64,000 nt of DNA, from contig NZ_JAQZAJ010000008.1 in NCBI RefSeq assembly GCF_028737195.1, forward strand, positions 1-64,000, read 5' to 3'. How positions within the stretch are numbered: position 1 is the first letter of the stretch; each line of letters opens with the position of its first letter. The DNA is from Pseudovibrio exalbescens (lineage in GTDB: Bacteria > Pseudomonadota > Alphaproteobacteria > Rhizobiales > Stappiaceae). Positions 6,001 through 35,255 of the stretch are shown one piece after another. The position numbers were made by a program, and so were the translations under genes. The notes beneath the pieces are model-generated. The model ran no database searches and had not been told where the DNA came from. It saw nothing but the letters and a program-made list of their open reading frames with translations.

Positions 6001-8574
6001 CGACTGATCATTTGCCACCGTCACACGATGGGTCACCGTTTCATCAGCATGCCCGTCTCCATCAAGGTCAGCGGCGTCAATGCGCAAAGACCCATCTGCA
6101 GAAACTGTTTCAAAACGGCTTCGGATCACCGAGCCATCTTGCGTCAGATCGCTTACCGTGATGGTCAGGGTGCCATCGTCTGCCGTCTCACGTGCCTCAC
6201 GTTGGCTAAACCAGCCACCGCCTGTAAGATCACGCTCAATAATCACAGTGCTTCCATCGGCGCTGCGCTCGGTTACAACCGTCCGTCGCAACACTGCGGT
6301 ATCTGCATCGCTGCCCAGGGACAGGGTTTCGGTTTCAACCTGACTGCCGTCAGCCCGACGGGTTGTATTGATGGTCTGGATGCGATCAATGACCCCGTCG
6401 CCGTCGTCGTCATAACGCAGAAGTTTGGACAAGCCATCTTCAGAGGTTTGTGAGAAGATGCGATACGCAATTTCGCCACCAAGTGCATAGGCGGTAATCG
6501 TCAGCAGCCGCGTTCCGTTGGCCTCAATCCGCTCCTCTTGCTCCACCCGGTGCCCCAGATTCTCCGAGGCCAGCGTCAAATCCCCCAATGTGCCTGTTGT
6601 TCCGTCTGTGCGGGTAAAGACAGCGCGCCCGCTGATTGACGACCCGTCGGCGAGTTCCGTATGGCTGGCATCCGCTGTCAGGCCTATGGACTTGATACCA
6701 AGGTCTGCTAGGGTTTTCGAGGTATGAGAGCCATCCGCATTGGTCACCAGCACTTTGAACTTGTCGAACTGCGCATCCGCCGCGCTCAAGACCCCGTCCC
6801 CATTGCTGTCGAATACAGCGGCGAGCGCCTCAAGATCGCTCGTTGACGTGGGATCCCATTCGGTGAAGATGAATTGACGCTTTTCTGTAATGGCGTCCCG
6901 TCCATCTGGGTCAAAAAACAGGATGCCATCTCCTGCACCAGCCCAAGCGGTGCGGTGCAAGAAACCATCGCCACCGGTATCCATGAAAACGTCAGATTTG
7001 GTGAGCTCGGTCACTTCCAGACCATTGCCGTTGAGATCCAGTAACACTGGCTTTATGTTGTGAACGCGCAGTCCGGCGGCCACATAGGTGTGCAACCCTT
7101 CAACAGTAAAGTTGTAGACGGTGTGGAGCCCCGGCTCTTCTGCAATGCGTTCAATGGCTTTCAAGGAACCATCAGCCTGCACCACCATATCCCCGGAAGA
7201 GAGCTCACCGATCGGCCGGAAGCTGCCATCTGCCATTAGATATGGGTGCTCTGGTGTCACCAGCGTGCCATCCACATTCAAAACGCGGCGCTTACCATGA
7301 ACAAAAAGGTCTGTTACCTCGCGCGGCTCAAGCACCCCAAGGCCGTCGAACGCCATAACCTTGTCTTCAAGGGCAATTTCGGAGATTGGTTTTTCAGTCC
7401 CATCTGCCAGCAGGATCAATGTATTGCTGGCAAAACAGCTCATATTGTCCCTAAAGCTGGTTTCACGAGAACCTATATCGGGCTTGGAGCGAGGAGTTGT
7501 CCCGATGTAAGAATCGTTATCATCAGGTCTTGAGCGGTCAGGTGTAGTGTTGTCCCCGTCTTTATTCTTGTTTCGGTTGGGCTTTGGAGTCGGAACCGGC
7601 GGGTCGTGTCGACCCGGATCGCTTCTATCAGATGGATCAGGTTTGGGAACTGGAGTTCTGACGTGGTCACGACCAGTGTCTTTTGAGGGTGTCTTGGAAA
7701 AGTTATCCTTAGTGTCCCCAACGTCGGGCCAAGAGATGTCGCCAAGCGGCTTGTTCCATACTGGATCGAGAGGATCGTCAAGCTTGTCTAAAGTGCCCGG
7801 AAGTCTCGCATCGCGGGCGTTGAAATCATCTTCCAATACAGAGAAAGCGTCTGAAACCCGATCATTTGCACGCCGTGCATCTTCCAAGACAGAAAAAGCG
7901 TCTGCAATCCGATCATTCACAGGCTTCGCATCACGGGAGTTGAGACCATTGGAAACATTATCCACACCGGTCTTGGTGTGTGTTCGGCCATCAGCTTGCC
8001 TGCCTTCGTGGTCCAGGCCTGTCAGGGGGTAGTTATTGCCCGTATTGGGGGAGTTCTTGGCACCATAGTAGCCGGTAGTGTACGGGTTGAAGCCTTTCGG
8101 CGGCGGAGGCACCCGATCTGGATCGACCATCCAGTCAAACCCTGCTTCAACGTATATCTCTCCATACTGTCCACCAACGTAAGCACCAATAGCGACCGCT
8201 CCCACAACCGCGACCGTAGTGAGCGCTACAGGAGCACCTAGAGCTACTGCACCCGCACCAACTACCCATGCAGCAGCACTTCCACCCAGCTCTGCGCCCA
8301 CAATAGCGCCGCCTGCCCCAGCGACTTCTCTGGCAAACGCTTCGCCACCCTTGTTGTAACCGTCTACGAGTTCCCCCGCTTCTGAGACGACAGTAACCGC
8401 ACGTCCCGTAACTTTTAGGGCAGTTTTACCGACTGTCCCGGGATTCAGGTAGGTGTTGATTGCATATTCTTTACCAGCCATGTAAGCGCCGACCCCGGCA
8501 AAGTAGTCGAATGAACTAGAGGCGCTTGAGGCTGCAGGATAACCATTGGTGTAACTATAGGAATAATTATTCAT
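1..8574 (-). CDS. Giant RTX-type protein with embedded Hint domain (partial, C terminus off window)
   Basis: An uninterrupted frame runs from ATG at 8574 to the window edge (at least 2858 codons). Order seen: no classical signal peptide; a Gly/Ala-rich hydrophobic stretch around residues 85-135; a linker with a duplicated DAFSVLED segment and Pro-rich tract; a Hint domain (380-506); an LDLNGNG...D-x-x-G-D-G calcium-type segment; about twenty DxDGDG repeats (roughly 715-1980); a DUF4214-like helical domain (around 2050-2170, motif NAFGREPTLAEL); then RTX blocks (GGxGxD nonapeptides, NDTYIYRLGDG) alternating with beta-rich segments. Known: C-terminal RTX with no N-terminal signal fits type I secretion, with calcium-driven folding outside the cell. 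The start overlaps the stop of the upstream membrane gene (8567-9127). Inferred role: large adhesin or processed exoprotein; no enzymatic toxin domain was seen. No T1SS genes lie in the window. Confidence 0.9.
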   Translation of the reverse strand, partial: MNNYSYSYTNGYPAASSASSSFDYFAGVGAYMAGKEYAINTYLNPGTVGKTALKVTGRAVTVVSEAGELVDGYNKGGEAFAREVAGAGGAIVGAELGGSAAAWVVGAGAVALGAPVALTTVAVVGAVAIGAYVGGQYGEIYVEAGFDWMVDPDRVPPPPKGFNPYTTGYYGAKNSPNTGNNYPLTGLDHEGRQADGRTHTKTGVDNVSNGLNSRDAKPVNDRIADAFSVLEDARRANDRVSDAFSVLEDDFNARDARLPGTLDKLDDPLDPVWNKPLGDISWPDVGDTKDNFSKTPSKDTGRDHVRTPVPKPDPSDRSDPGRHDPPVPTPKPNRNKNKDGDNTTPDRSRPDDNDSYIGTTPRSKPDIGSRETSFRDNMSCFASNTLILLADGTEKPISEIALEDKVMAFDGLGVLEPREVTDLFVHGKRRVLNVDGTLVTPEHPYLMADGSFRPIGELSSGDMVVQADGSLKAIERIAEEPGLHTVYNFTVEGLHTYVAAGLRVHNIKPVLLDLNGNGLEVTELTKSDVFMDTGGDGFLHRTAWAGAGDGILFFDPDGRDAITEKRQFIFTEWDPTSTSDLEALAAVFDSNGDGVLSAADAQFDKFKVLVTNADGSHTSKTLADLGIKSIGLTADASHTELADGSSISGRAVFTRTDGTTGTLGDLTLASENLGHRVEQEERIEANGTRLLTITAYALGGEIAYRIFSQTSEDGLSKLLRYDDDGDGVIDRIQTINTTRRADGSQVETETLSLGSDADTAVLRRTVVTERSADGSTVIIERDLTGGGWFSQREARETADDGTLTITVSDLTQDGSVIRSRFETVSADGSLRIDAADLDGDGHADETVTHRVTVANDQSRTESMTTTNRDGSIRDHVLQEVSADGRQKTISRDLDGDGRADVQEELSIVVAADGSSTSTLEVKNADGSLRSSVTTTQSADTLSKTAESDLDGDGDVDLRETEQVTLLADGTRETVMRSENGDGSLRSYEKQVLGADKVTHERFVDLDLNGSLEANELVSSVVTNSTTQERVETAWTRNADGSVQSKSVSTTSKDGLKTVTNRDIDGDGDIDVSITDVTEGGADGISTRTVTARNQDGSLRSNVVTSTSSDGLTTTTQTDRDGDGRFEKRTVDHLVKDADGATTRELSVFAEKAGSLLSRVVTEVSADRRTSTVTSDVDGDGHADLVTVSEEQADGTKTVTQTATTAIGTVLSKTTTTTSANGLMISTARDLDGDGQDDQVADTEVVLNADGSKTTKSEVKNGNGSVRSATEVTVSDDGLEVTTKSDADGDGVFERVISDKSTLDTDGGVTRTVESHSTDGSLLSRSRTTTSDDGLETTIKRDTDGDGTFDLVESTRKELRADGSIVTSTELRDAEGALREKTTQTLSANERRTVTHSDLNGDGRTDLSITEVVGEDGATKRTVQSLNTAGITLSQNRTEVSADELSSVSYSDRDGNGVFETSSETTRHLNSDGSQTTIEVQTGRNGSLSKKTITTVSDNGLYETRRADLDGDGKIDQQETLNKTIASDGSVTTTSMVSSGSGKLISKAIDTVNGSGTTSTRQFDADGNGKNDHVATTKVRADGSTIQTSAYYDEAGQLLSKTTSTEHGNGLAFKVEHDLNGDGKTDRTVLNETTLGTDGSKVKTITHKAGNNSLLAQEEYRSSDNGLTTRASLDLDGDGKFESVTLKTTAFSNDGATVETWTTSGSGGKASATQTTSGDGLVVTSAVDLDGDGKVDRESLVKTGTSGGATETLREMSEGVLRQETTTTTSADGREQVTRIDMDGDGQADLELRSVTDLNGTETTTYKDLSAHGEAKAIITLARTANGTKETEHLDVDGDGSVDIFRTTSVSYDDAGQEVSVFEERTTTGELVLKSTTTTSVNGYTSTTQTDSNGDGEIDSITKIDRSFNEDGSATTTTARFDDLGELTSRFVDTVSGDERKLEEVFDFDGDGRADLVRVTEMAADGQRIVTETARGGGSSVTTTSADGLVTTVERGGLTETLTRSVTGNGSYSWDNGVSGSLTQPRITVEHKVNAQGIETWEMTSVRDGSSSHFIQQFDEAGRARLLAEAAKLYDSVFDRDMERVEVETLVQYTTSGELNLVELARDLLSSTEFSVRYGTLTDAGFVARAYQNAFGREPTLAELQEHLNELSEKPNSRANLVAELSQSAEHRAVGNSHGHTNNHDVSVMPIVKEDDLRMSFGAHGFDLTTNTAEVVVGSEGNDVLAAGDNTAVFGGKGDDVLTAGTKDDTLVGGQGKDTLKGGKGDDTYVYSRGDGHDIITDSGSSADGGDTLRFGKGIRIEDLNITLQGTDLKIGFFLENGVDASQAAELGLPALDGSITIKGWNTASNPIQIIGSHWIGNLDAFQGGNTGGNRIERIAFEDGDSFWIGHLNAFQGGNNDARFQNLGDGDDTFTGTRGADLLIGAEGNDTLNGGDWHDTLVGGEGNDTLNGGNHNDRLVGGIGDDTLNGGTGDDIYTYSRGDGHDTISDGGGSEDQIYLSDLSLDDVSLRRVGNDLLIYILDSDNPKTPLEELEGSIRIKNWHAAANRIDKLQFEDGQNIDLGTFDSVIRAEDVGSIHVKDVVAEAHNGVWIWGKNPRSLIDIAADREPNSTWTEETLRGHTAEGQLRKFSGEIYLEADKQYTFREVVDDYSLLMINEDEVLNSKVWNDASTGTYSVSHSGYVSFAFYAWNNRHGGNYSLTYSDDGGTSYKSFQFAQSTSEVTENLALQGTAQADWMTGSASDDALWGLNGNDLISGAQGDDVLKAGAGDDTLIGGEGDDRLEGGAGNDTYIYRLGDGHDHVVDTSGSLDKLVFEEGITLADVAAEQSGDDLILRIAVGTPKEGSVRIANYFSATPAI
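2640..6430 (-). repeat. Tandem DxDGDG protein repeats, period about 55-57 codons
   Basis: The translated minus strand shows about twenty degenerate units of the form ADGS-(T/V-rich)-L-S-TTTSADGL-...-D-x-D-G-D-G-x-x-D, for example DLDGDGKIDQ, DTDGDGTFDL, DVDGDGHADL and DFDGDGRADL. The acidic loop resembles EF-hand or thrombospondin type 3 calcium loops. The rest is Thr/Ser-rich and probably beta-stranded, giving an extended calcium-stiffened stalk between the Hint and DUF4214/RTX parts. One unit has lost the loop (GGGWFSQ near 6215) and another has DLNGSLEAN near 5550. Confidence 0.85.
7057..7437 (-). other. Hint (bacterial intein-like) domain inside the RTX protein
   Basis: Residues 380-506 of the giant protein. 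The block A start is Cys380 (CFASNTLILLADG), block B is TPEHPYLM with the conserved T-x-x-H, and the end is NFTVEGLHTYVAAGLRVHN with terminal His-Asn. No endonuclease insertion is present (about 127 residues). The residue after Asn506 is Ile, not Cys/Ser/Thr, so normal protein splicing is unlikely. This resembles type-B bacterial intein-like (BIL) domains, which cleave their flanks. Inference: autocleavage could separate the N-terminal 379 residues, or the Hint itself, from the repeat and RTX region. Confidence 0.85.
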
Positions 8575-9127
8575 TATCGCCGCCCGCTATTTTCTTCAAA
8601 TTCCAAACAATCAAACCAAACATCACCGAAGAAAGGAAAAAAAGCATATAAGTTATTAGAGAAAAAAAATAAAAATGCATCCATCCAACTCTTGGCCCTG
8701 GCGTGGTTATCATTCCATTCTCGCAATAAAAAGTCCCACAGCAAACAATGAAAGATCCAATAAATATCATGAAAAGTGCAAGATAAAATGGATATGAACG
8801 GTTGAGTTTGTCGAAGTGATGAAAAGATCGATATAAGAATGTAAGCAAAAACAAAAATGGAAGTAAGCCAAAGAATATCAACCAAGAGAAGTTCGTCGCA
8901 TACTTAAACTTCCATGCGTGCTCAGGTAAGCCGCAGGCCTGAAGTGCCGCGACATTTTTTTCTATTGCAGGAAACCCAAAGTCAAGACTCATGATAAAAT
9001 CATGGAATACATTGAGTCCAAAAAGATCAACTGCCAAGAACAGAGACACAAACAGAACGCCGGTGAAAACAAAAAAGTAGTTTAGAAGGTTTATTCGTTT
9101 TGTTTTCATGCTTACTTTACCATACAT
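8567..9127 (-). CDS. Small polytopic membrane protein, coupled to the RTX giant
   Basis: The 186-residue product is not recognised as a named family. It has about four hydrophobic segments: around 16-36, 78-98, 112-132 and 150-172. Between the first two lies a soluble loop with a Cys-Gly-Leu-Pro motif, and a CCGTFYC cluster follows the third segment. The C terminus is short and acidic (GGDNE). ATG at 9127 or the internal ATG at 9109 (MKTKRINLL) could start it. The stop overlaps the ATG of the RTX gene by 8 nt, so the two are probably co-translated. The DNA is clearly more AT-rich than its neighbours, suggesting separate ancestry. Possible roles, all inference: membrane partner, export aid or protective protein for the giant. 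Confidence 0.75.
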   Translation of the reverse strand: MYGKVSMKTKRINLLNYFFVFTGVLFVSLFLAVDLFGLNVFHDFIMSLDFGFPAIEKNVAALQACGLPEHAWKFKYATNFSWLIFFGLLPFLFLLTFLYRSFHHFDKLNRSYPFYLALFMIFIGSFIVCCGTFYCENGMITTPGPRVGWMHFYFFSLITYMLFFLSSVMFGLIVWNLKKIAGGDNE

Positions 9128-9676
9128 TCGTGGGGCATCCTCGTGCCCAAACCTGCTATCTTGCCCTTAGAGCGCTGTTGTTGGGCCTGCATTGCAACAG
9201 GCATCCCTACATACTCATTTCGCTGCTTAAACCAATAGAGGACGACAGCCAATCCCAAACAAACCCACCGTGAGCTTTACAAGGTATTGGTTTGAGCTGC
9301 AAACTTGAAATTGAGTGCATCCAAAACCAACTGGTTGCATCCAGGCCCGACGCAAAGCCCTCGCATCTCCATTGCCGATCGCTTTGAGAAGAGAGTCGGC
9401 TCTCTCCCCGATTCCCGCCGTAAATTCACTTCACGAGAAACGTTATCTCCTGTTATTTTTCGGTGCATGGGCTGTTGAAGAGCGGGCGAGCGCCAGTTAA
9501 AAAAACGTTAAATATCAACGGACTAAAGACCCCTGCCCTGCTGCCTGAGGCGGTTCGTTAAGAGGCGGGGCGGCGGGTTAAGGTTTCGTTAACCAAAGCG
9601 CCGTTGACTTCAAAGCCAGAAGTGCTGATTATTTCTTGAATTCCTGTTTATTCAAAAAATTCGGATCATTTGAGAA
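9128..9676. promoter_or_regulatory. Upstream region of repABC with promoter and inverted repeat
   Basis: This is a non-coding stretch of about 550 bp. A good sigma70-type promoter lies just upstream of repA: TTGACT at 9604-9609, a 17-bp spacer, and GATTAT at 9627-9632. At 9576-9594 is the inverted repeat GGTTAA-N7-TTAACC. CGTTAA recurs near 9508 and 9556. In repABC plasmids RepA with RepB represses this promoter, so these repeats are candidate autoregulatory operators or ParB sites. No convincing gene was seen between 9128 and 9600. Confidence 0.5.
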
Positions 9677-11029
9677 ATGGCAGTCAGCGCATCAGAACAC
9701 GGCCTCATGCTTTCACAGATGAAGGCAGACCACAAGGCGTTGTCCAGCACGCTGGCCGCCCTTGCCCAGTCTCAGTTCCCGCCTAAAGCGCAGAAGATAC
9801 TGCGCAAGTTTCCGGCGTCTGAAGCGGCAAGCTATCTGGGTATCACCCCGCGCTATCTGGCGCTTTCTGCCGACGAAATGGGCCTTGAGATTGCCAAGAT
9901 CGGCCGCGGCGAACGCCGGTTCTACTCTTTGGAGCAGATGAACCAGATCCGCCGCTATCTTGCGGAAAAGGCGGGAGATGATGCGGCCAAGGCGCTGAAC
10001 TACGACCCGCGCCGCCGGGAAGGCGATGATCTGCAGATCTTCGCCTGCTCCAACTTCAAGGGCGGCTCCGCCAAGACCTGCACTTCCGTGCATCTGGCCC
10101 AGTATCTGGCCCTGCAAGGCTATCGTATCTTGCTGGTGGATCTGGACCCGCAGGGCTCTGCCTCCTCCATGCTGGGTGTGGTGCCAGAGCTGGTGGCCGA
10201 AGACGAGAGCCTTTACGCCGCCATTCGCTATCAGGACCCGCGGCCGCTGCGGGAGGTGGTGCAAAAAACCTATTTTGACAATCTGGACCTTGCGGTGGGC
10301 AGCCCGTTCCTGACCGAGTGGGAGTTTTTTGCCCCGCACTACGCCACCCTCGCCGGCCAGGAAGAGCCCGGCATTCGCAACCGCATTGCCGACATTGAAG
10401 ACGAGCGCAAGCAAAAGGGCATTTCCAACGCCCGCCTGCGCGAGCTGGAGGATGAGCTGGCCCGTGAAAACGCGGCGCTTTCTGACTGTTTGCAGCGCAA
10501 GCTGTATTTCACCCGCTTGCAGCTGGCCTTTGAAAATGTGGAGCCGGATTACGACGTCATCATCTGTGACACGCCGCCCAGCCTTGGGTATCTGTCCAAT
10601 GCCGCTTCGTTTGCCGCGGACCACCTTTTGGTGACCATCCACCCGCAATGGATCGACTGCGAGTCCATGGCCCAGTATCTGGCCACCTCCATTGCCCATA
10701 ACGAGTTTTTTGAGGAAACGGTTGCCAAGCAGCTGGGCCCGGAATATCTGGCGCCCAAGAGCCTGCAGTATCTCATCACCCGCCATGACAACACCAGCCG
10801 GCCGGAAACGGATGTGGTGACCATGCTGCGCAGTCAGCTGCAGAACGTGCTGACCAACACCATGTTGCGCAGCTCGGCCATTGCAGAGGCAGGCAACGTG
10901 CAGCAGACCCTTTATGAAGCCGACCGGACCAACTTTAACGGCAAGACCTATGACCGGGCGCTGGACTCGGTGAACAAGGTAAACGGCGAGATTGAAGACC
11001 TGCTCAAGGCCTATTGGGGACGCTCATGA
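9677..11029 (+). CDS. repA: RepA, ParA-type partition ATPase of a repABC replicon
   Basis: The 450-residue Walker-type ATPase segregates the plasmid together with RepB and autorepresses repABC. Residues 1-115 form the N-terminal winged-helix/MerR-like region (ASYLGITPRYLAL). The deviant Walker A is KGGSAKT at 128-134, Walker A' is LLVDLDPQGS, and Walker B is VIICDTPPSLGY. Length matches alphaproteobacterial RepA proteins. It ends in TCATGA, overlapping the repB start by 4 nt. A promoter with a 17-bp spacer lies 45 bp upstream. The gene order repA-repB-repC on one strand makes the assignment secure. Confidence 0.95.
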   Translation: MAVSASEHGLMLSQMKADHKALSSTLAALAQSQFPPKAQKILRKFPASEAASYLGITPRYLALSADEMGLEIAKIGRGERRFYSLEQMNQIRRYLAEKAGDDAAKALNYDPRRREGDDLQIFACSNFKGGSAKTCTSVHLAQYLALQGYRILLVDLDPQGSASSMLGVVPELVAEDESLYAAIRYQDPRPLREVVQKTYFDNLDLAVGSPFLTEWEFFAPHYATLAGQEEPGIRNRIADIEDERKQKGISNARLRELEDELARENAALSDCLQRKLYFTRLQLAFENVEPDYDVIICDTPPSLGYLSNAASFAADHLLVTIHPQWIDCESMAQYLATSIAHNEFFEETVAKQLGPEYLAPKSLQYLITRHDNTSRPETDVVTMLRSQLQNVLTNTMLRSSAIAEAGNVQQTLYEADRTNFNGKTYDRALDSVNKVNGEIEDLLKAYWGRS

Positions 11030-12126
11030 ACGACAAGCGCAAACAGAACAAGAGCAAGCTCAGCGCCATCATGACCGGCAACAACGCCGCCATGGCGCGC
11101 TCCGGCCCCGCCGTGGAGCCGGAAGACGTGCGCCCGAAGCCACGGGAGAAAAGCGCCGTTGGCCGGTTGGGGGCCGCGCTTCATTCCCTCACCGAGCAGC
11201 GCACGGAGCCGGTGGACCCGAGCCTTGTAATCAAGAACCTGGACGCCAAGCTGCTGCTGCCGTCGCTGGCGCTGGACCGCGCTTTTGAGCTGGTGGACGA
11301 GGAGCTGGACACCTTGGTGGAGAGCATTCGCCAGAACGGCCAGCAGGTGCCGGTGCTGGTGCGCCCTCACCCGGACCGCGCCGGGTACTATCAGATTGCC
11401 TATGGCCACCGCCGGGTGAAGGCCTGCCAGCAGTTGGACATTGCCGTGCGGGCCGTCGTGGAAGAGATGAGCGATGAGCAACTTGTTATCGCTCAAGGCA
11501 AGGAAAACGAAGAACGCAAAAACCTGACCTACATTCAGCAATGCTTCTTTGCCGCCGAGCTTTCCAAGACGTTTACCCGCGATGTGGTGGCCGCCGCCGT
11601 GGGCGCAGGCGACAAGACGCGGGTGTCTAAACTCACCAGCATCATCCGCCGGGTTCCGGTGGATCTTATTGAATCCATTGGCTCTGCGCCGGGCATTGGC
11701 CGGGTGAAGTGGGAAGCGCTCGCCAAGGCTTGTGAGGAGGAAAAACTCCCTGCCCGCTTGCGCAAGAGCGTGGCCAGCCTGAAGGCCTCCGGCAAGTGGG
11801 AGGCCATGGCGAGTGCCGATCGGTTCGCGTGGTTGCACGATCTGGCTCTCTCTACAGAGGTCACTGACGGGGAGTTATCCCCCTCCCCCAATGAGGAAGT
11901 AAACTCACGCCTGAAGGCTGGCTCTGGCAAGGCCGTGGTGTTGAAGGCAGCGGACGGCAAGCCGCTGGTGGAAGCGCGCGGCACGCGCACCTTCAAGATT
12001 GTTTGGCAGGATGAAGCCCGCGCGGCGGCGTTCTCCAGCTTCTTGAGTGGCAAGATGGAAGCGCTCTTGAAAGAGTTTGAGAAAGAACACACGAACGCCG
12101 GTAAGACCGAAAGGGACACGCCATGA
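11026..12126 (+). CDS. repB: RepB, ParB-type centromere-binding protein
   Basis: The protein binds parS sites and is moved by RepA. I chose ATG 11026 because it overlaps the repA stop (ATGA); an in-frame ATG at 11014 also exists. The N-terminal ParB/Srx domain contains the conserved GHRRVKAC box (CTP-binding arginine patch) near residues 126-133 and ENEERKNLTYIQQ about 40 residues later. A central HTH region follows, and then a C-terminal dimerisation part. The product is 366 residues, within the usual size range. repC follows after a 256-bp gap that holds the expected regulatory RNA region. Confidence 0.94.
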   Translation: MNDKRKQNKSKLSAIMTGNNAAMARSGPAVEPEDVRPKPREKSAVGRLGAALHSLTEQRTEPVDPSLVIKNLDAKLLLPSLALDRAFELVDEELDTLVESIRQNGQQVPVLVRPHPDRAGYYQIAYGHRRVKACQQLDIAVRAVVEEMSDEQLVIAQGKENEERKNLTYIQQCFFAAELSKTFTRDVVAAAVGAGDKTRVSKLTSIIRRVPVDLIESIGSAPGIGRVKWEALAKACEEEKLPARLRKSVASLKASGKWEAMASADRFAWLHDLALSTEVTDGELSPSPNEEVNSRLKAGSGKAVVLKAADGKPLVEARGTRTFKIVWQDEARAAAFSSFLSGKMEALLKEFEKEHTNAGKTERDTP

Positions 12127-12382
12127 GGTAGGCTGGAAAAAATTAGGCCCTGCAGACGGCAATCTGCAAGGCCTGAATTCAAGAGGCATTCAGAGCCGCA
12201 ACTCCGAAGTACCCGACTAGCACTCTCACCGTACTTCGATGCGCCGACAAAATCAATCGCCTTCACGCGGAGGCGAATCGATTTATTGCGCCCTGCCCTC
12301 TGAACCGCTGGAAACATGTGGAGCACGTCATCAAACGTGCGTTTTAAACGCGTCTTCGAACGGGACGTGGGAGGGTTTTGCT
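12127..12382. ncRNA. repB-repC intergenic region, likely site of the antisense ctRNA
   Basis: In repABC plasmids this gap encodes a small counter-transcribed RNA that controls repC; here its presence is inferred from position. What is visible: a hairpin GCACG (12323-12327) / CGTGC (12336-12340) followed by GTTTT, and a competing pairing of CACGTC (12324-12329) with GACGTG (12364-12369), which abuts the repC Shine-Dalgarno GGGAGGG. The two pairings are mutually exclusive, as expected for attenuator control. I could not place the exact ends or strand promoter of the RNA. Confidence 0.5.
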
Positions 12383-13660
12383 ATGCAAAATTCAACGGGT
12401 GTGGCTTCATTCCGCAAGCTGACCCCTGCCATGATGCGCGCACAGCAGTTGGCGCTGGCCAATGACATTGTTGAAACCAGCAAGGGCGAAGTGGCCATGG
12501 CTTTGAAGAAGGCCGCCCCTGCCCTGGGCATCGACGGCACTTGCTATCACATCCTGGACATTCTCATTGGCTTGACGGTGGCAGACGACTGGCGCCCGAA
12601 CCGCAAGCCCATTGTGGCCATTTCCAATGAGAAGCTCGCTGAATATGTGTGCCGCTCCAAGCGCACCGTCATGCGCTGTCTCAAGCGGCTGGTTGAAGCG
12701 GGTGTGATGGCCTATCGCGACAGCCCAACAGGGCGGCGCTATGTTCACCGCGGCGAGTTTCACAAGGGCAAGCTGGGGGAGATTGAGCGCGGCTTCGGGT
12801 TTGACTTTTCACCGGCGCGCCAGCGTGTTGCCGAGTTGAAGGAGCTGGGCGAAGCGTTTGCGCGGCGCTTAAAGCAGGAAAAAGACGCCCGCCGTACGGT
12901 GAACCGGTTGCTGCGTTCCATTGAAGACATGGCCGTTCTGGCGGCAAACGAAGGCTTGGACTTTTCTGAGGTGTTGCACGCGGTCAATCAGGCCAAGGAT
13001 GCGCCCATGCCCATTGTTCAAAAAGCAGACGTAATGCAGGGCCTCTATGAAATGGCACTGGGCGCGTTTGCAGCTCAAGAGGCTGAGTGTGATGCGAATG
13101 CCTGTTCTTCTTTTGAAGAAACGCCACCCGCGGGTGACATTTGCGACACCCCTTATAATAATACAAACCCTCAATCTCTTGAAAATATTAGTATGAAACG
13201 GAGATCGGCTCACGCCGATCAATCAAATCATGAAGATCCCGACAAAGCCGGGATCAAACGGGCTTTTGAAAAAGCGCCTAGCCGCAAGGTTTGGGCCAAG
13301 CCCTCTGAGCCTTCCCAGGAAGACAAGCTGCAAAACATTTCAGTTGGACTTCTCAAAACGGCGCTAACAGAACTTCAGGTGACGCTTGGGGTGGAGTTCA
13401 ATCGCTGGCAGGATGTGACGGCTCACACCACGGAGATGGCGCTGCTCATTGGCTTGTCTCAAGCCGGACTGGCTGAAGCTGAAAAGCGGGCAGGGGGCTA
13501 TGTGGCGGCCGCGGTGTTGGCAACCACCGCCGAAAAGGCGCTGCGCGATCCGGAGTTGATCTCCAGCCCAGGCGGGTACTTCCGCGCCTGTATTGACCGG
13601 GCGATGGATGGTGAGCTGGCCTTGCACAAATCTCTGTTTGGCCTGGCAAACGGCGCTTGA
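12383..13660 (+). CDS. repC: RepC, replication initiator
   Basis: RepC is the essential initiator protein of repABC replicons, and the origin usually lies inside its own gene. I chose ATG 12383 (MQNSTGVASFRKLTP) because GGGAGGG sits 8 bp upstream; the frame stays open further upstream through the regulatory RNA region, which is not coding. The product is 425 residues. The N-terminal domain has the typical FRKLTP start, DDWRPNRKPIVAISN and a winged helix (EYVCRSKRTVMRCLKRLVEAGV). A variable linker follows, then a conserved C-terminal domain with GGYFRACIDRA. An AT-rich patch near 13150-13200 inside the gene could be the unwinding region of the origin. Confidence 0.94.
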   Translation: MQNSTGVASFRKLTPAMMRAQQLALANDIVETSKGEVAMALKKAAPALGIDGTCYHILDILIGLTVADDWRPNRKPIVAISNEKLAEYVCRSKRTVMRCLKRLVEAGVMAYRDSPTGRRYVHRGEFHKGKLGEIERGFGFDFSPARQRVAELKELGEAFARRLKQEKDARRTVNRLLRSIEDMAVLAANEGLDFSEVLHAVNQAKDAPMPIVQKADVMQGLYEMALGAFAAQEAECDANACSSFEETPPAGDICDTPYNNTNPQSLENISMKRRSAHADQSNHEDPDKAGIKRAFEKAPSRKVWAKPSEPSQEDKLQNISVGLLKTALTELQVTLGVEFNRWQDVTAHTTEMALLIGLSQAGLAEAEKRAGGYVAAAVLATTAEKALRDPELISSPGGYFRACIDRAMDGELALHKSLFGLANGA

Positions 13661-15660: not shown

Positions 15661-16057
15661 GCGACGTTTCCCAACTGTAAGTTTGTTCCTGCATCCAATC
15701 TCGCGAGACGGTGCATCGGCACAACCGCCCTAAGATCCTAGGGGTTCAAGCCTTATCGAGGCTCTGCTCTATTCTCGTTTGATGAACGAGGTAGACCGCC
15801 CTGATGTTGCTGAGGGCCGGGCCAACACCCTGACCATGAGGGGTGGAGTAGGGCAAGGCCAGTCGTACGCTAGCCGCGTTGCAGAAATCGCCGTTGATTG
15901 TACTCATGCAATTGTGCGAGGATCGGGATCTATTTCATCCACTCTTCATTTTCGGGCAGAACCATCACATTGGGCTCGCACAACTAATTGACATTTTGAG
16001 CATCTTGGGCACATAGGATCCAACAGACCCGCCACGCCTCTCAACGAGGCGCAACAG
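15661..16057. other. Intergenic stretch without recognised feature
   Basis: This is about 400 bp between the HEPN gene and the broken Abi gene. It contains one 70-codon open frame (15779-15991) with no recognisable motif or clear ribosome site. No terminator, tRNA or repeat was seen. Confidence 0.4.
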
Positions 16058-16420
16058 GTGGGTTTTTTATTGTCTACAATACCCTATCAAAAACCAGCTC
16101 TTGATATCGATGCGCAGCTCAACCTGTTGGAGCAGCGCGGCATGATCCTAGAGGACCGTGCCCGGGCGGAGCACTATCTGCGCTTCATTGGCTATTATCG
16201 GCTTTCGGGTTATTGGTTTCCCTTCCAGTATCGCGATGATGGTCCAGATCATGACAATTTCCGCCCAGGAACAGAATTTGAGAGGGTTCTCGACCGCTAT
16301 GTGTTCGATCGCCGTCTACGCCTGCTCATCATGGATGCTGCCGTTGCGACGAGGTTTTCCGGCACGCCCAACCACAGGACGCATCAACAGCACCAGCGAC
16401 TGCCACTTCATCACCTTTAG
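16058..16420 (+). pseudogene. Truncated Abi_2-family (AbiD/AbiF-like) abortive infection gene
   Basis: The N-terminal third of an Abi_2 protein is recognisable: L-N-L-L-E-x-R-G-M...A-x-x-Y-L-R-F-I-G-Y-Y-R-L-S-G-Y, then PGTEFERVLDRYVFDRRLRLLIMDA. These are signature blocks of AbiD/AbiF proteins, known in phage abortive infection and normally around 300 residues. After about 105 residues similarity stops at RFSG, and the sequence runs into a Tn3 transposase fragment on the other strand. The catalytic or C-terminal part is missing, so the gene is inactive. The start is unclear (GTG 16058 or a nearby TTG). Confidence 0.7.
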
Positions 16421-29503: not shown

Positions 29504-29806
29504 ATGGCTGTTGCGATCAAAATGCCCAGGGCGGCGCGTAAGGAGCTTGTGACACTCGGGGAAAACATCCGCATTGCCCGACTGCGTCGCAAACTGACCG
29601 CCGAGATTGTTGCGCAGCGCGCAGGGACAACGCGGCAGACCATCGCCAAGATCGAAAGCGGGAACCCCGCCGTTAAGATCGGCACTTACGTGGCCGTTCT
29701 GCAGGCGCTTGGCCTTTTGAAAGGCTGGGGGGATCTCGATGACCCGGTTGGCAAGCAGATGGCCCTGGATGACCTTCCGCAGCGTGCGAGGCTGAAAAAT
29801 GGTTGA
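29504..29806 (+). CDS. hipB: HipB-like XRE-family antitoxin
   Basis: The product is 100 residues from ATG 29504, chosen because GGAGGTG lies 7 bp upstream; an earlier frame start at 29483 lacks one. The XRE helix-turn-helix is LGENIRIARLRRKLTAEIVA and QRAGTTRQTIAKIESGNPAV. It overlaps hipA by 8 nt. Known role: it binds the operon operators and neutralises the HipA kinase. Palindromes at 29359-29395 are its probable binding sites. Confidence 0.85.
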   Translation: MAVAIKMPRAARKELVTLGENIRIARLRRKLTAEIVAQRAGTTRQTIAKIESGNPAVKIGTYVAVLQALGLLKGWGDLDDPVGKQMALDDLPQRARLKNG

Positions 29807-31019
29807 AGTCTGGATCGACTGGAAGGGGCTGAAACGGGTTGGCACGCTTCACCGCACAGCGGGGCGCGGCCGAGAGCGGGTGTCCTTTACCTATCATGAG
29901 GATTGGCTTGCCGACGAAAATGCCTTTGGACTTTCGCCCGGCATGCCTCTGGGTAAAGGCCAGTTCGTGCCTGAGGCGGGGCAGGACATGCTTGCACCGC
30001 TTGGGGATTCCGCCCCTGATACCTGGGGCAGAACGGTGATGCGGCGTTTTGAGGGGCGCATGGCAGAGGCCGAGGGGCGACGCCCGACAACGCTGCAAGA
30101 AACAGACTACCTGCTTGGCGTGAATGACGAGACCCGGCTGGGGGCGCTGCGCTTCAAGGTTGATGGCGCGTTTCAAGCGCCCGAGGGCATCGGTGTGCCT
30201 GCGCTCGTGAGCCTGGGGGATTTGCTGGATGCCTCGCAACGGGTTCTGCGCGGGGACGAGACGGCTGAGGATCTTCAAATGCTGTTTGCGCCGGGAAGTT
30301 CTCTGGGCGGCGCTCGGCCGAAGGCCAGCATCTTAGACCAACACGGCCGCCTTTCTGTTGCGAAGTTCCCGAAAGAGACCGACACCTATTGTGTGGAACG
30401 GTGGGAAGCCATTGCATTGGAGCTGGCAAGGCGCGCAGGCATTGCGGTTTCGGATCACACGCTTGAGATGGCGGGCGACAAGCCGGTTTTCTTGTCCCAT
30501 CGGTTTGACCGGACCGACGACGGCCGGATCCCGTTCCTCTCAGCCATGGCGATGCTGGGCGGCAAGGATGGTGAAAGCTACAGCTATTTGGACCTGGCGG
30601 ACATCATCACCTCAGAAAGCGTCACGCCCGACCAAGACCGAGAGGAACTCTACCGGCGGGTCGCCTTTTCCATTCTCGTGACGAACCTTGATGACCACAT
30701 GCGCAATCACGGATTTCTGCGGGGGCAGGGCGGCTGGCACCTCTCACCGGCCTATGACATCAACCCGGTGCCGAACCAACCGCGTGTGCTCAAAAGCTAT
30801 GTGGACGATGACAATCCGGATGCCAGCATCACCCTGCACCGCGCGCAACATGCAGCCTATCTTCTGGAACGCGGGGAGGCTGATCGCATCATTGCAGAGG
30901 TGGCTGAGGCGACTAAGGCTTGGCGCGATGTTGCCCGTGCCTTGGGCGCGCCAGAAAGGGAGATCCGGGAGATGGTGACCGCCTTCGAGCACGAGGAAGC
31001 GGATCTGGCGCGCGCGTGA
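29799..31019 (+). CDS. hipA: HipA-like Ser/Thr kinase toxin
   Basis: The 406-residue product comprises a HipA N-terminal subdomain, then a kinase core: Gly-rich loop GSSLGGARPKAS (near 167-178), ATP-site Lys in VAKFPKETD, FDR box (SHRFDRTDD), catalytic NLDDHMRNHG (Asp298 as base) and metal-binding AYDINP. Known HipA proteins phosphorylate glutamyl-tRNA synthetase or other synthetases and stop growth when not held by HipB. The overlap with hipB argues for a working pair. It may act as plasmid addiction or in phage defence. Confidence 0.88.
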   Translation: MVEVWIDWKGLKRVGTLHRTAGRGRERVSFTYHEDWLADENAFGLSPGMPLGKGQFVPEAGQDMLAPLGDSAPDTWGRTVMRRFEGRMAEAEGRRPTTLQETDYLLGVNDETRLGALRFKVDGAFQAPEGIGVPALVSLGDLLDASQRVLRGDETAEDLQMLFAPGSSLGGARPKASILDQHGRLSVAKFPKETDTYCVERWEAIALELARRAGIAVSDHTLEMAGDKPVFLSHRFDRTDDGRIPFLSAMAMLGGKDGESYSYLDLADIITSESVTPDQDREELYRRVAFSILVTNLDDHMRNHGFLRGQGGWHLSPAYDINPVPNQPRVLKSYVDDDNPDASITLHRAQHAAYLLERGEADRIIAEVAEATKAWRDVARALGAPEREIREMVTAFEHEEADLARA

Positions 31020-31405: not shown

Positions 31406-31673
31406 GTTCGCCGCCGGGTAGGCGGCTGAGAGATCACCGATCTGCCAGACGACCGCCTAGAATTTGTTCGCCGCCGGGTAGGCGGCTGAGAGACTCGTAT
31501 TTCTTGCTGAGTGGCAACCGGCGATGTTCGCCGCCGGGTAGGCGGCTGAGAGAGGCAAGAACCGTCTGCCACTCCGGTCCGACAAGTTCGCCGCCGGGTA
31601 GGCGGCTGAGAGAAGCAAGAGGAAGTCGCGCGCATTTTCGGAGTGGTTCGCCGCCGGGTAGGCGGCTGAGAGA
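31406..31673 (+). CRISPR. Orphan type I-F-like CRISPR array, 5 repeats, 4 spacers
   Basis: Five identical 28-bp repeats start at 31406, 31466, 31526, 31586 and 31646, separated by four 32-bp unique spacers (exact 60-bp period). The repeat begins GTTCGCCGCC and ends GGCTGAGAGA, with an internal stem GCCGCC/GGCGGC around GGGTA. This matches the type I-F repeat shape (GTTCACTGCCG...AGGCAGCT.AGAAA) in length, stem and ends. No cas gene occurs in the window. The repeats are perfect, so the array has been kept or built recently; it may depend on Cas proteins encoded elsewhere. Confidence 0.95.
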
Positions 31674-31810
31674 GGCTTCGCCCGATTTGGCGGGCAGTAT
31701 TGATGTTTTATTAAGGGAACTGAAACGCATTATTTTGCGGATCGCACTTTCTCACATCGTCTCCTATTTTCTCATATTTTTTGGAGCAAAGCGGGCCGAG
31801 ACTTCTCTGT

Positions 31811-31901
31811 GTCTCACATATTCTCATATCGTCTCATATCGTCTCATATCGTCTCATATCGTCTCGTATTGTCTCACGAATTCTCATATGGTCTCACATC
31901 G
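31811..31901 (+). repeat. Nine 10-bp tandem repeats (GTCTCATATC), module 1
   Basis: Contiguous 10-bp units run from 31811: GTCTCACATA, TTCTCATATC, GTCTCATATC three times, GTCTCGTATT, GTCTCACGAA, TTCTCATATG, GTCTCACATC. Decayed similar units precede them (31750-31779). The exact 10-bp phase puts each unit on the same face of the helix, as for cooperative protein-binding iterons. The array ends 6 bp before the nick-like box at 31907. Confidence 0.85.
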
Positions 31902-31906
31902 AGGAC

Positions 31907-31937
31907 TGGCAGGATAGGCAAAGTGATATCACTTTGC
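31907..31937 (-). other. oriT/T-border-like box plus 20-bp palindrome, module 1
   Basis: TGGCAGGATA at 31907-31916, one base, then the perfect palindrome GCAAAGTGAT/ATCACTTTGC at 31918-31937, then CGGCGG. On the minus strand this reads palindrome, then TATCCTG|CCA. That is the MOB_P and T-DNA border nick consensus YATCCTG|Y preceded by an inverted repeat, as in IncP oriT. A second copy with the same spacing lies at 33088-33118. No relaxase gene is in the window, so transfer function is inference. Confidence 0.5.
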
Positions 31938-32156
31938 GGCGGCGGCGGCTGAGCGCTGAAGCTTGCTTGATGTCTATTCGCGGCTGCGGCGCTCAAGGGG
32001 CCAGTGTGGTGGCGGTGGGGCAGGCGGGCGCAGCGGCGCGCGGATGGAGATTCGACGTCCCATCGCGGTTGCCAGACAGAGACGAAATCTTCTTCTGTCT
32101 CGCCGCTTGAAGAACCCTAGCACGAGTTTTTTATGCGGAACAACCAGCTGAGGGGC

Positions 32157-32177
32157 AGGCGGGCGACCCGCCTTTGT
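32157..32177 (+). terminator. Hairpin terminator candidate
   Basis: AGGCGGG (32157-32163), loop CGA, CCCGCCT (32167-32173) followed by TTGTG: a strong 7-bp stem with a short T-rich tail in the plus direction. It lies between module 1 and the convergent nuclease pseudogene. The T-run is short. Confidence 0.4.
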
Positions 32178-32220
32178 GTTCCAACCTCAGCCGTGTTGCC
32201 AACCCGGCGGCGCGTGCCGT

Positions 32221-32938
32221 TCACGCTGCTGCCTGGACGCTGCCCTCGGAAGCGCTACGGAGCGAGAAGTTGACCTCGTACCGCATAAAGGAAATCTGCG
32301 GCACCATACTGGCGGCATATTCCAGCTTCTTGTCACCCGCGAGCGCGATGATGAGACCCTCAACCTGTTCGCCTTGTGCCAGATCGGACTTCACCCAGCC
32401 CATGTAGCGCAGGGCCTGACCCACTGCTTCATCGGAGGTTTGGCCTTTTTTCAACTCGATAACCAGCCAGCGCGGATCTGTTTTGTGCTTGGCCAAGAAG
32501 TCAATTCTGCCCGCAGGACAGTGGTACTGGCTGCCTGCCTCTGGGTTTTCAGGCGTTTCCAGAAGGTCCCACTCTTGGCCAATCTGGGTTCGAGCCCAGT
32601 TGTCCAACAGGAAAATCTGAAGTTGCTTTTCCAGCGAAAAGCCCCTGCGCTCGATTGCTGCTTCCTCGGTGACAGGCGGTTCATCGAGATCTAACCCGTC
32701 GTCTAGAACACTCCACCAAAGCACATCGAGGGTCCACAGGTCGGTCTCCAGTGCCTCGGCAAGGTTCAGCAAAATGTCATTGATGGCTTTGTATTTCTGG
32801 CCAGTTTGAGTGCCACGGTCGAACTGGGGCGCGCTAATTTTGTTGAGGCATTCTCAGCCTTCACAAAGCGCGCACACACGTCTTGCGACACTCCTTGGTT
32901 CCCATTTAGCGAAGTTCAATAGAGGTGATTTTGTTCAT
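32221..32938 (-). pseudogene. PD-(D/E)XK (NucS-like) nuclease gene, frameshifted
   Basis: The long open part (32221-32772) encodes GRIDFLAKHKTDPRWLVIEL then KKGQTSDEAVGQALRYMGWV: the D...E-L-K...Q core of PD-(D/E)XK nucleases, close to the NucS C-terminal pattern. Upstream, coherent protein continues in other frames: FDRGTQTGQKYKAINDILLN and CLNKISAPQ in the same frame, GNQGVSQDVCARFVKAE after a shift near 32848, and MNKITSIEL from ATG 32938 after another near 32905. So the gene is broken by two frameshifts, or the sequence has errors. It lies between the two transfer-like modules. It probably once acted on DNA. Confidence 0.7.
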
Positions 32939-32990
32939 TCGGAGCAGTTGTTTCGCACTGTCCTGGAAGGTGCGAGGAACTTCATCGGCC

Positions 32991-33077
32991 TCTTGCAGAC
33001 TTTTGCAGACTTTTGCGGACTTTTGCGGACTTTTGCGGACTTTTGCGGACTTTTGCAGACTTTTGCAGACTTTTGCA
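32991..33077 (+). repeat. Nearly nine 10-bp tandem repeats (TTTTGCGGAC), module 2
   Basis: The 10-bp units run from 32991: TCTTGCAGAC, TTTTGCAGAC, TTTTGCGGAC four times, TTTTGCAGAC twice, then TTTTGCA. The sequence is unrelated to the module 1 units, but unit length, copy number and position relative to the following TGGCAGGATA box are the same. Open frames across it are only repeat artefacts. Confidence 0.88.
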
Positions 33078-33087
33078 AAGGGGGGTG

Positions 33088-33118
33088 TGGCAGGATATGT
33101 AAAGTGTTAGCACTTCAC
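33088..33118 (-). other. oriT/T-border-like box plus 20-bp inverted repeat, module 2
   Basis: TGGCAGGATA at 33088-33097, one base, then GTAAAGTGTT/AGCACTTCAC at 33099-33118 (imperfect palindrome, arms GTAAAGTG and CACTTCAC), then GGCGA. It has the same order, spacing and orientation as 31907-31937. The first eleven bases TGGCAGGATAT equal the start of the Ti plasmid left border as I remember it. The minus strand reads inverted repeat then ATATCCTG|CCA. Confidence 0.5.
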
Positions 33119-33698: not shown

Positions 33699-35255
33699 AT
33701 GCATCAGTCAAATTCCCCAAACCCAGTGAAAAGAAACGGGTTTTTAAATGGGTGGATGCGAGAGTTCCCGCCCCCGCTTACAATCCTTGTTTCAGTGCTG
33801 TGCGTTGTGTGGATCGCAACGTTTTTTATCCCCTCAGGGGCATATATCCTTGATGAGACTGGATCACCAATACCCGGAAGCTTTCGTACTGTTCCCAAGC
33901 CACTCAGCTTTCCAGAACACCTTGGTGAGTTGCCACTCGCGCCCGTAAACGGTCTCTACGGGGCGGTTGATCCAGAAACGGGGCAAGTTGCTCCGTTTAA
34001 TATTGGCCCGTTGTTTGGGTCCGCGCCCGTTTTCTTTTATGTGCTCGCAATTGGTGGCTTCATGACTGTTGTCTTTGCTACCGGCGCTTTGGATCGCGGC
34101 ATTCACCATCTTGCATGGTCGTTTCGATCGCAAGGGGAATGGCTGATCGTTGTTCTGTGTTTGCTATTTGGGGTTTTGGGATCGGTCATGTTTTGGAGTG
34201 ACGAATCTCTCGGCCTGTACGCTCTTATGATCCCGCTCATTATCGCCCTTGGATACGATCGTATGACAACCGTGGCTGTGGTCACTGTTGCACCCTTCGC
34301 TGGACGATTGGCGTCAACAATCAATCCATTTGTGATTGGCATCGGATCAGATAAAGCGGGAATAACGTTGGTGGACGGCTTGCCTCTTCGGTTGGTCATG
34401 TTTTGTTGTGTAATGGCCGTCTTGATCCTTTATGTTTTAAGGTATGCCAAGAGAGTAAAAAACAATCCTCAAACCTCAATCTCTGGCATCAGCGAGGAAG
34501 ATAAAGCCTTGGCGGAAGCAGACGCGCTCCCTCCGCCCAAGCTATCGCGAACAGACAAGATAATTGTCTCCCTCGTGGCAGGAACATTCAGTCTCATGAC
34601 ATTCTCCATTGTTCCCTGGGGGGCTATTTTGGGTAATGCCAAGATAGACGCCTATGAGCATGAAAGCATTAACAGCCCGTTCGCATGGGAACTGGGTTGG
34701 TGGCTACCGGAACTGACAGCTCTTTTTTGTGTCATGGCAATCGTGGTTGGTGCTGTCGGACGACTGGGGCAAGCTGAAACGGCTCGTGCGTTTCTAAGAG
34801 GTGTTGGTAGCTTCGTCGGCCCTGCGTTCCTAATAGTGGTCGCACGGGGAATATCAGTCCTTATGACAAACACGAAAACAATTGATACCGTCCTGCATAC
34901 CATGGAGGGGCTGACTGCAGGAGCATCTTCAAGTGTGTTTACCCTCGTCATTTTCTTAGTGTCTATGCCCCTCGCATTTCTTGTTGGAGGCGGCTCTGCG
35001 GGCACGGCGTTGGTGATCCCAGTCTTGGCCCCACTTGCTGATTTCGCTGGCATCGAAAGATCTCTTGTCCTCACTGCGTGGTCCACCGCGGGAGGAGTGA
35101 TGAGCCTTATATTGCCAACAAATGCTATCCTCATGGCAGGATTGGCATTGGCGAAGGTTGGATATGATCAATATATCCGGTTTATCCTGCCATTGGTCAT
35201 TGTTTTTATCGGTATTGCTGTTTTTTCTTTGCTAATTGGTAGCCTGCTTCTGTAG
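33699..35255 (+). CDS. YfcC/ArcD2-family amino acid antiporter-like protein
   Basis: The 518-residue inner-membrane protein has about 12 helices. It fits the YfcC family: MREFPPPLTILVSVLCVVWI, IPSGAY, GGFMTVVFATGALDRGI, VVTVAPFAGRLASTINPF and the C-terminal GGGSAGTALVIPVLAPLADF and STAGGVMSLILPTNAILMAG. Members are basic amino acid or dipeptide-linked carriers often found with arginine deiminase genes. arcA and a second antiporter gene lie 12-16 kb downstream on the other strand, which supports an arginine/ornithine-type role. The exact substrate is inference. Confidence 0.82.
   Translation: MHQSNSPNPVKRNGFLNGWMREFPPPLTILVSVLCVVWIATFFIPSGAYILDETGSPIPGSFRTVPKPLSFPEHLGELPLAPVNGLYGAVDPETGQVAPFNIGPLFGSAPVFFYVLAIGGFMTVVFATGALDRGIHHLAWSFRSQGEWLIVVLCLLFGVLGSVMFWSDESLGLYALMIPLIIALGYDRMTTVAVVTVAPFAGRLASTINPFVIGIGSDKAGITLVDGLPLRLVMFCCVMAVLILYVLRYAKRVKNNPQTSISGISEEDKALAEADALPPPKLSRTDKIIVSLVAGTFSLMTFSIVPWGAILGNAKIDAYEHESINSPFAWELGWWLPELTALFCVMAIVVGAVGRLGQAETARAFLRGVGSFVGPAFLIVVARGISVLMTNTKTIDTVLHTMEGLTAGASSSVFTLVIFLVSMPLAFLVGGGSAGTALVIPVLAPLADFAGIERSLVLTAWSTAGGVMSLILPTNAILMAGLALAKVGYDQYIRFILPLVIVFIGIAVFSLLIGSLLL

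Follow-up and report, generated by a model that had tools for sequence, protein, structure and literature searches.

Replicon and layout of the two modules

The window, the whole stretch of 64,000 nucleotides that was analysed, forms part of a contig of 90,849 bases (C25). C25 is a large repABC plasmid of a marine Pseudovibrio bacterium, and its repABC genes lie about 18 kb from two modules that each combine an array of 10-bp units, a nick element and an inverted repeat. In window coordinates, the features are:

9677-11029, + strand: ParA-like RepA
11014-12126, + strand: ORF in the RepB position, assigned by position
12239-13660, + strand: RepC (Pfam RP-C)
31750-31779, + strand: module 1 distal block of three TCTC units at 10-bp spacing, assigned from sequence
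31807-31896, + strand: module 1 array of nine 10-bp units, consensus TATCGTCTCA, putative TraK-type accessory sites on the leading side
31907-31916, + strand: module 1 nick element TGGCAGGATA, predicted nick on the - strand at 31910/31909 (TATCCTG|CC)
31918-31937, + strand: module 1 perfect palindrome of 20 bp, proposed TraJ/relaxase recognition side
31975-31996, + strand: module 1 RP4-type right-hand block TATTCGC...GCTCAA, TATTCGCGGCTGCGGCGCTCAA
32221-32772, - strand: ORF in the stretch separating the modules, NucS C-terminal-like nuclease domain (E 6e-6)
32988-33077, + strand: module 2 array of nine 10-bp units, consensus GACTTTTGCA
33088-33097, + strand: module 2 nick element TGGCAGGATA, predicted nick on the - strand at 33091/33090
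33099-33118, + strand: module 2 inverted repeat of 20 bp with one mismatched pair

The original prediction described two co-oriented modules with nine phased 10-bp repeats each, and this layout was confirmed by Tandem Repeats Finder, by the positions of the cores, which lie 1181 bp apart and both on the + strand, and by the inverted repeats. Tandem Repeats Finder returned 31811-31901 for module 1 (period 10, 9.1 copies) and 32993-33077 for module 2 (period 10, 8.5 copies). Counted back from the core in tens, both modules have nine units, followed by a 10-bp linker before TGGCAGGATA. The repeat sequences of the two modules had been called unrelated, a description that did not fully hold: T at unit position 6 and C at position 9 occur in nine of nine units of both arrays, position 10 is mostly A, and these three positions stand in equal register to TGGCAGGATA in the two modules.

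Module 1 keeps the complete set of oriT parts. Its right-hand block is the single exact match to TATTCGC-N9-GCTCAA within the window, and distal blocks resembling its own were seen at the oriTs of contig C23 of the same genome, of P. exalbescens and of P. hongkongensis. A pattern search of the window revealed no TATTCGC block beyond the inverted repeat of module 2, which, without this block, could be a mere fragment. The exact pattern TGGCAGGATA-NNN-AAAGTG occurs at three places in the 4.39-Mb genome, namely the two modules and C23:123372. The rarity is a property of this combined pattern and not of TGGCAGGATA by itself, which, with one mismatch allowed, was found seven times in the window against 3.2 expected and is near chance outside the modules. 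A third exact copy of TGGCAGGATA lies at 35183-35192 on the - strand, within a C4-dicarboxylate carrier ORF.

Several further elements were observed on the plasmid. A CRISPR array (31406-31673), made up of five identical repeats of 28 bp and four spacers of 32 bp, sits where the leading region of module 1 is predicted; neither Cas1 nor Csy3 was found in searches of the window's genome, and the spacers had no other match among the matches listed against the other fetched loci. Similar CRISPR arrays adjoin type I-F cas genes on Pararhizobium gei and Neokomagataea plasmids. A HipA-like gene (Pfam HipA_C, 29799-31019) lies upstream of module 1, and an orphan oriT elsewhere (L033, oriT at 10053) is likewise preceded by an ORF of that cluster (8254-9510). 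An abiF RNA was detected at 16028-16063 (Rfam RF03085, 39 bits, gathering 37). Beyond the window, C25 72745-73044 and 77765-78102 are 92-96% identical to a stretch of C23; the ORF around the latter segment has 3,043 codons, and C23 carries one of 2,925.

Kinship with IncP origins and the placement of transfer genes

MOB_P relaxases have the nick consensus YATCCTG|Y beside an inverted repeat. Both modules show this consensus adjoining an inverted repeat, and the predicted nick sites were placed by the MOB_P/RP4 consensus, which we take to apply here. Past the inverted repeat, the TTATTCGC...GCTCAA block is present in module 1 and absent from module 2. The IncP plasmids pC1-1, pMATVIM-7, R751 and PB11 carry GGCAGGAT, an inverted repeat and CTTATTCG...CTCAA in equal order, one IncP plasmid compared carries the RP4-type sequence, and an IncP-type oriT was located in nine of the 14 plasmid and genome loci searched. 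Searching plasmids by blastn with module 1 returned 31 records; none covered 80%, and all had E of at least 2. The link to IncP was made after it, by reading the matched places. Judged by these sequence features, both modules are oriTs of the RP4/IncP (MOB_P) kind.

Nineteen RP4-like transfer protein queries gave zero matches on the whole of C25. Relaxases of PF03432, VirB4 proteins of PF03135 and coupling proteins of PF02534 were not found in the window's genome, and proteins of these types were present in all eight other genomes searched alongside. Since the genome lacks any detected relaxase, VirB4 or coupling protein, both oriTs are orphans; a plasmid may have been lost from the assembly, which is in 26 contigs.

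The core was then considered in 87 genomes of the family. Allowing up to 3 mismatches, the search returned 19 places in 12 of them, five of which were dropped as chance matches (G014:C47, G041:C2, G049:C24, G066:C352 and G068:C5), having no TATTCG block or lying in coding-like sequence. The remaining 14 places in nine genomes, the window's own included, are a lower bound, because this search missed the oriT of the BW2 helper. Transfer genes adjoin five of the 14 (G020:C8, G041:C21, G049:C32, G055:C83 and G061:C334). The C23 oriT adjoins a decayed set consisting of a TraK-like ORF of 65 aa, a broken traL and a TraM-like gene (6e-5 against NF010470, under the curated cut-off). The other eight are orphans: the two window modules, G018:C8, G018:C11, G020:C13, G031:C61, G054:C12 and G055:C84. 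On the whole contigs of six of the orphans the 19 tra queries had no match; for the two G018 orphans there was no tra match in 20-kb stretches, and the relaxase matches of that genome lie on other contigs.

The linked gene set comprises TrbC/VirB2, CagE_TrbE_VirB, TrbL, VirB8, CagX, TrbI, T2SSE, T4SS-DNA_transf and a Toprim protein, together with a relaxase with a TraI_middle domain and a weak NikA-like (NikA/TraJ-like) protein; it covers TraG and VirB2/B4/B6/B8/B9/B10/B11-like proteins. Beside the core, the Roseibium relatives and P. hongkongensis carry traK-traL-traM, genes for type IV secretion and traJ-traI (P. hongkongensis TraL against NF010461, E=1e-58, under the curated cut-off). A complete Roseibium aggregatum plasmid repeats this gene order; its annotation names a TraI/MobA(P) relaxase and TraL, and the core recurs upstream. 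The proposed MOB_P-type identity is upheld by these relatives, where the core is linked to type IV secretion genes and a relaxase of the TraI/MobA(P) type. The outcome that had been named as refuting, a lack of relaxase from every replicon with the module, was not encountered, although none was found in the window's own genome.

In wider scans, the core pattern hit six of 397 genomes at the order level, where the G296 place looks like chance, two of 387 at the class level, and nothing in viral contigs. A scan of genome contigs gave 20 stretches, of which 17 were read; L064, L067, L070 and L077 were judged by eye to be chance, and L078, having no TATTCG block, is doubtful. In Pacificispira spongiicola, two oriTs (L068 and L079) have a common core and different arrays; their scaffolds of 901,950 and 121,696 bases suggest that one may sit on a chromosome-sized replicon.

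Three other genomes pair an orphan oriT with a similar transfer-linked one, the array being included in each case: P. hongkongensis C13 and C8 (487 bp, 94.8%), BW5 C84 and C83 (780 bp, 89.3%) and BW2 C12 and C10 (653 bp, 88.6%). Such copying is as expected for oriT mimics that would be moved in trans. The same contig pairs share further shorter or separate patches, one of 1,041 bp in P. hongkongensis, which means that exchange between the plasmids went beyond their oriTs. At L032 19091 (G020:C8), the transfer-linked oriT of P. hongkongensis reads TGGCAGGGTA, one base off the nick consensus, unlike the orphan copy on C13, which keeps it. For modules 1 and 2, no matching full oriT beside tra genes was found, only a core at the decayed C23 oriT that is identical to module 1 over 36 bp (31903-31938), after which the two diverge into different arrays. 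The units of module 2 resemble those of C23 and P. exalbescens, but its inverted repeat is different. Taken together, the core shared by module 1 and C23 and the unit pattern shared by module 2 and C23 show that core type and array type are not tied together.

Phasing of the arrays and the proposed role of a TraK-type protein

In 21 oriTs, the stretch of 130 bp upstream of the core gave a mean z of 3.55 for matches at lag 10 (2.96 without the window). Lags 20, 30 and 40 were raised too, and the remaining lags lay between about -1 and 0.6. Among 7,430 background windows, 0.05% reached the leading-side 10-bp periodicity of module 1 and 0% reached that of module 2. Leading-side 10-bp contrast exceeded 99% of this background, which is slightly strict because it includes the arrays of the fetched loci, in 19 of 27 oriTs: Pseudovibrio 6/6, Rhodospirillales-type 4/5, Hyph_83 1/1, Roseibium-type 7/8, IncP-like 1/4 and other oriTs 0/3. 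On the lagging side none of ten oriTs did so.

The register of the window was shared by eight of ten outside arrays from Pseudovibrio (4/4), Rhodospirillales-type loci (3/5) and Hyph_83 (1/1), scored as the best of ten registers. These ten are not independent, because several, the P. exalbescens loci and C23 among them, are related by descent; the reference was the two window modules alone, and the TnnC unit motif was picked after the arrays had been viewed. The register was found in none of the eight Roseibium-type oriTs, although these are phased, in none of four IncP-like oriTs and in one of three from other alphaproteobacteria. Over nine arrays outside the window the unit approximates RAnTTTnnCR, with C at position 9 in 78%. 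The inner unit bases read CT (module 1), TG (module 2), GT/TG (both P. exalbescens and C23), CC (P. hongkongensis) and GC (one Rhodospirillales assembly).

No 10-bp period was found in RhodspMAG78 and Ros_ECS, despite their having the core of phased relatives, and among nine IncP-type oriTs the lag-10 z exceeded 2 in one, on an AT-rich Methylomonas plasmid. The lack of a period in most IncP oriTs and in these two relatives indicates that a phased array is dispensable for some RP4-type oriTs.

The original prediction regarded the repeats as binding sites of an accessory protein, and their position beside the nick agrees with such putative sites. One paper places the TraK site of RP4 downstream of nic (PMC5789077), the side that the arrays occupy here; another names the stem-loop itself as the TraK site (PMC3522642). 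A TraK profile built from three Roseibium-type proteins matched the TraK genes of P. hongkongensis, C23, Hyph_83 (Hyphomicrobiales) and Methylococcaceae at E 2e-7 to 9e-5, compared with 0.36 for the best of 2000 shuffles, and alignment of Roseibium with IncP TraK gave E=7e-5 at a probability of 63%. A TraK cognate to module 1 was not found in these searches. An AlphaFold2 model from 3 sequences placed helices at residues 12-68, a block with pLDDT mostly 71-88 (overall pLDDT 70.9, pTM 0.51). Foldseek with this model gave nothing at E<=0.001 and sequence searches found no related solved structure; given the lack of a Foldseek match, we claim no TraK fold.

Interpretation and comparison with known systems

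We consider it probable, at roughly 0.7, that the two modules are RP4/IncP oriTs on a repABC plasmid devoid of tra genes, which would be moved by helper plasmids through phased TraK-type sites, with two kinds of helper served. TraK binding and transfer for modules 1 and 2 are proposed here from sequence. The type IV secretion system, TraJ, TraK and the relaxase (TraI) would come from a helper plasmid. If transfer follows the RP4 scheme, the relaxase would nick the - strand in TATCCTG|CC and the departing strand would be led by the array, so that for module 1 the array, then the CRISPR array and then the hipA-like gene would enter the recipient. The phased units may be sites for a TraK-type protein aligned on one face of the DNA, and the differing inner unit bases may decide which helper is accepted. 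The differing rows of 10-base repeats suggest that the plasmid could ride on two different helpers, with modules 1 and 2 serving two helper kinds by analogy with staphylococcal SmpO. Were one relaxase to accept both modules, transfer would be expected to delete the intervening 1181 bp. The pair may have originated in the fusion of two plasmids.

A broader generalization, which we hold tentatively and at a little under even odds, is that alphaproteobacterial RP4-type oriTs are modular, with a constant nick core, read by relaxase and TraJ, and a leading-side row of units read by a TraK-type protein. The units would be of about RAnTTTnnCR, one per helical turn, in fixed register to the nick, and their inner bases would make up a swappable address for the helper. 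Two such addresses would stand in tandem here, and two kinds of conjugative plasmid could then move this one.

That the modules are non-working remnants left by the fusion or decay of former conjugative plasmids is unlikely, even though no transfer genes were found in the window's genome, module 2 lacks the right-hand block and C23 exemplifies such decay. Module 1 is complete, T and C at positions 6 and 9 are kept in nine of nine units of both arrays, and an orphan oriT is paired with a matching transfer-linked oriT in three other genomes. We regard it as improbable that the arrays act through DNA curvature or an HU/IHF-like host protein and that their unit differences are drift. The units are T-rich and helically phased, and phasing is often weak in RP4-type relatives, which would suit this; the inner bases, however, are constant within an oriT (nine of nine in module 2) and C recurs at position 9 from one oriT to the next (78%, nine arrays), and these count against curvature because curvature alone needs neither.

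Two further readings carry very little weight. T-DNA-border-like ends that mark a 1.2-kb mobile segment would fit the equal orientation, the T-DNA border nick consensus and the nuclease-like ORF between the modules. The relatives examined, however, carry single oriTs, the right-hand parts of the two cores differ, the genome has no detected PF03432 (VirD2 family) relaxase, VirB4 or coupling protein, and the modules are built like RP4-type oriTs. The border-like ends around a 1.2-kb cargo that had been envisaged were not borne out, given the single oriTs of the relatives and a right-hand block in module 1 and not in module 2. Least plausible of all is a partition or replication locus, for which phased repeats are typical as centromere-like elements and which would suit a repABC plasmid: the same core and arrays adjoin tra genes, occur on varied replicons and match IncP oriTs, and the repABC genes are some 18 kb away. 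Transfer of the plasmid by helpers, through RP4/IncP-type oriTs, remains the preferred reading.

RP4-type oriTs, orphan oriTs and multiple oriT mimics are already known. The open-access literature, as far as its available text goes, gave no example of 10-bp arrays that are phased, register-locked and built of differing units in RP4-type oriTs of Alphaproteobacteria. If the preferred reading is true, oriT subtypes set by accessory proteins, and multiple mimics, would extend from staphylococci to RP4-type systems of marine Alphaproteobacteria, one could tell from the oriT sequence which helper plasmids serve large repABC plasmids that seem non-transmissible, and the phased units would be a simple, testable DNA code for TraK.

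The IncP oriTs of RP4 and R751 resemble the relatives and both modules in the GGCAGGAT nick element with its inverted repeat, and the relatives and module 1 in the TTATTCG...CTCAA block; the traK-traL-traM leader and traJ-traI of IncP plasmids also occur in the relatives. The modules differ from IncP oriTs in the regular 10-bp units on the leading side and in a shorter inverted repeat, and the window plasmid differs from RP4/R751-type IncP plasmids in having no tra genes. The traK gene is found on the inverted-repeat side of nic in Roseibium and P. hongkongensis and on the opposite side in IncP plasmids. Overdrive and T-DNA borders, the latter 25-bp pairs that go with vir genes, likewise have repeats beside a related nick consensus, but the window has neither a border pair nor vir genes.

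The TcpK boxes of the pCW3 oriT are also short tandem repeats, bound by a winged-helix accessory protein; as described in PMC6137059, they are 9-nt boxes with a 3-nt linker and act with a different relaxase, and we liken them to the arrays by layout, not by protein kinship. The staphylococcal pWBG749 system is unrelated and Gram-positive, and its SmpO has two GNNNNC sites as against the nine phased units here (PMC8136818). According to the same paper, SmpO sets which oriT is accepted while the core is common, and some plasmids hold 2-3 mimics, mostly of different subtypes. The pWBG749-family mimics there described are like the modules in being oriTs with a common core on plasmids without transfer genes, around which the sites of the accessory protein diverge (PMC8136818).
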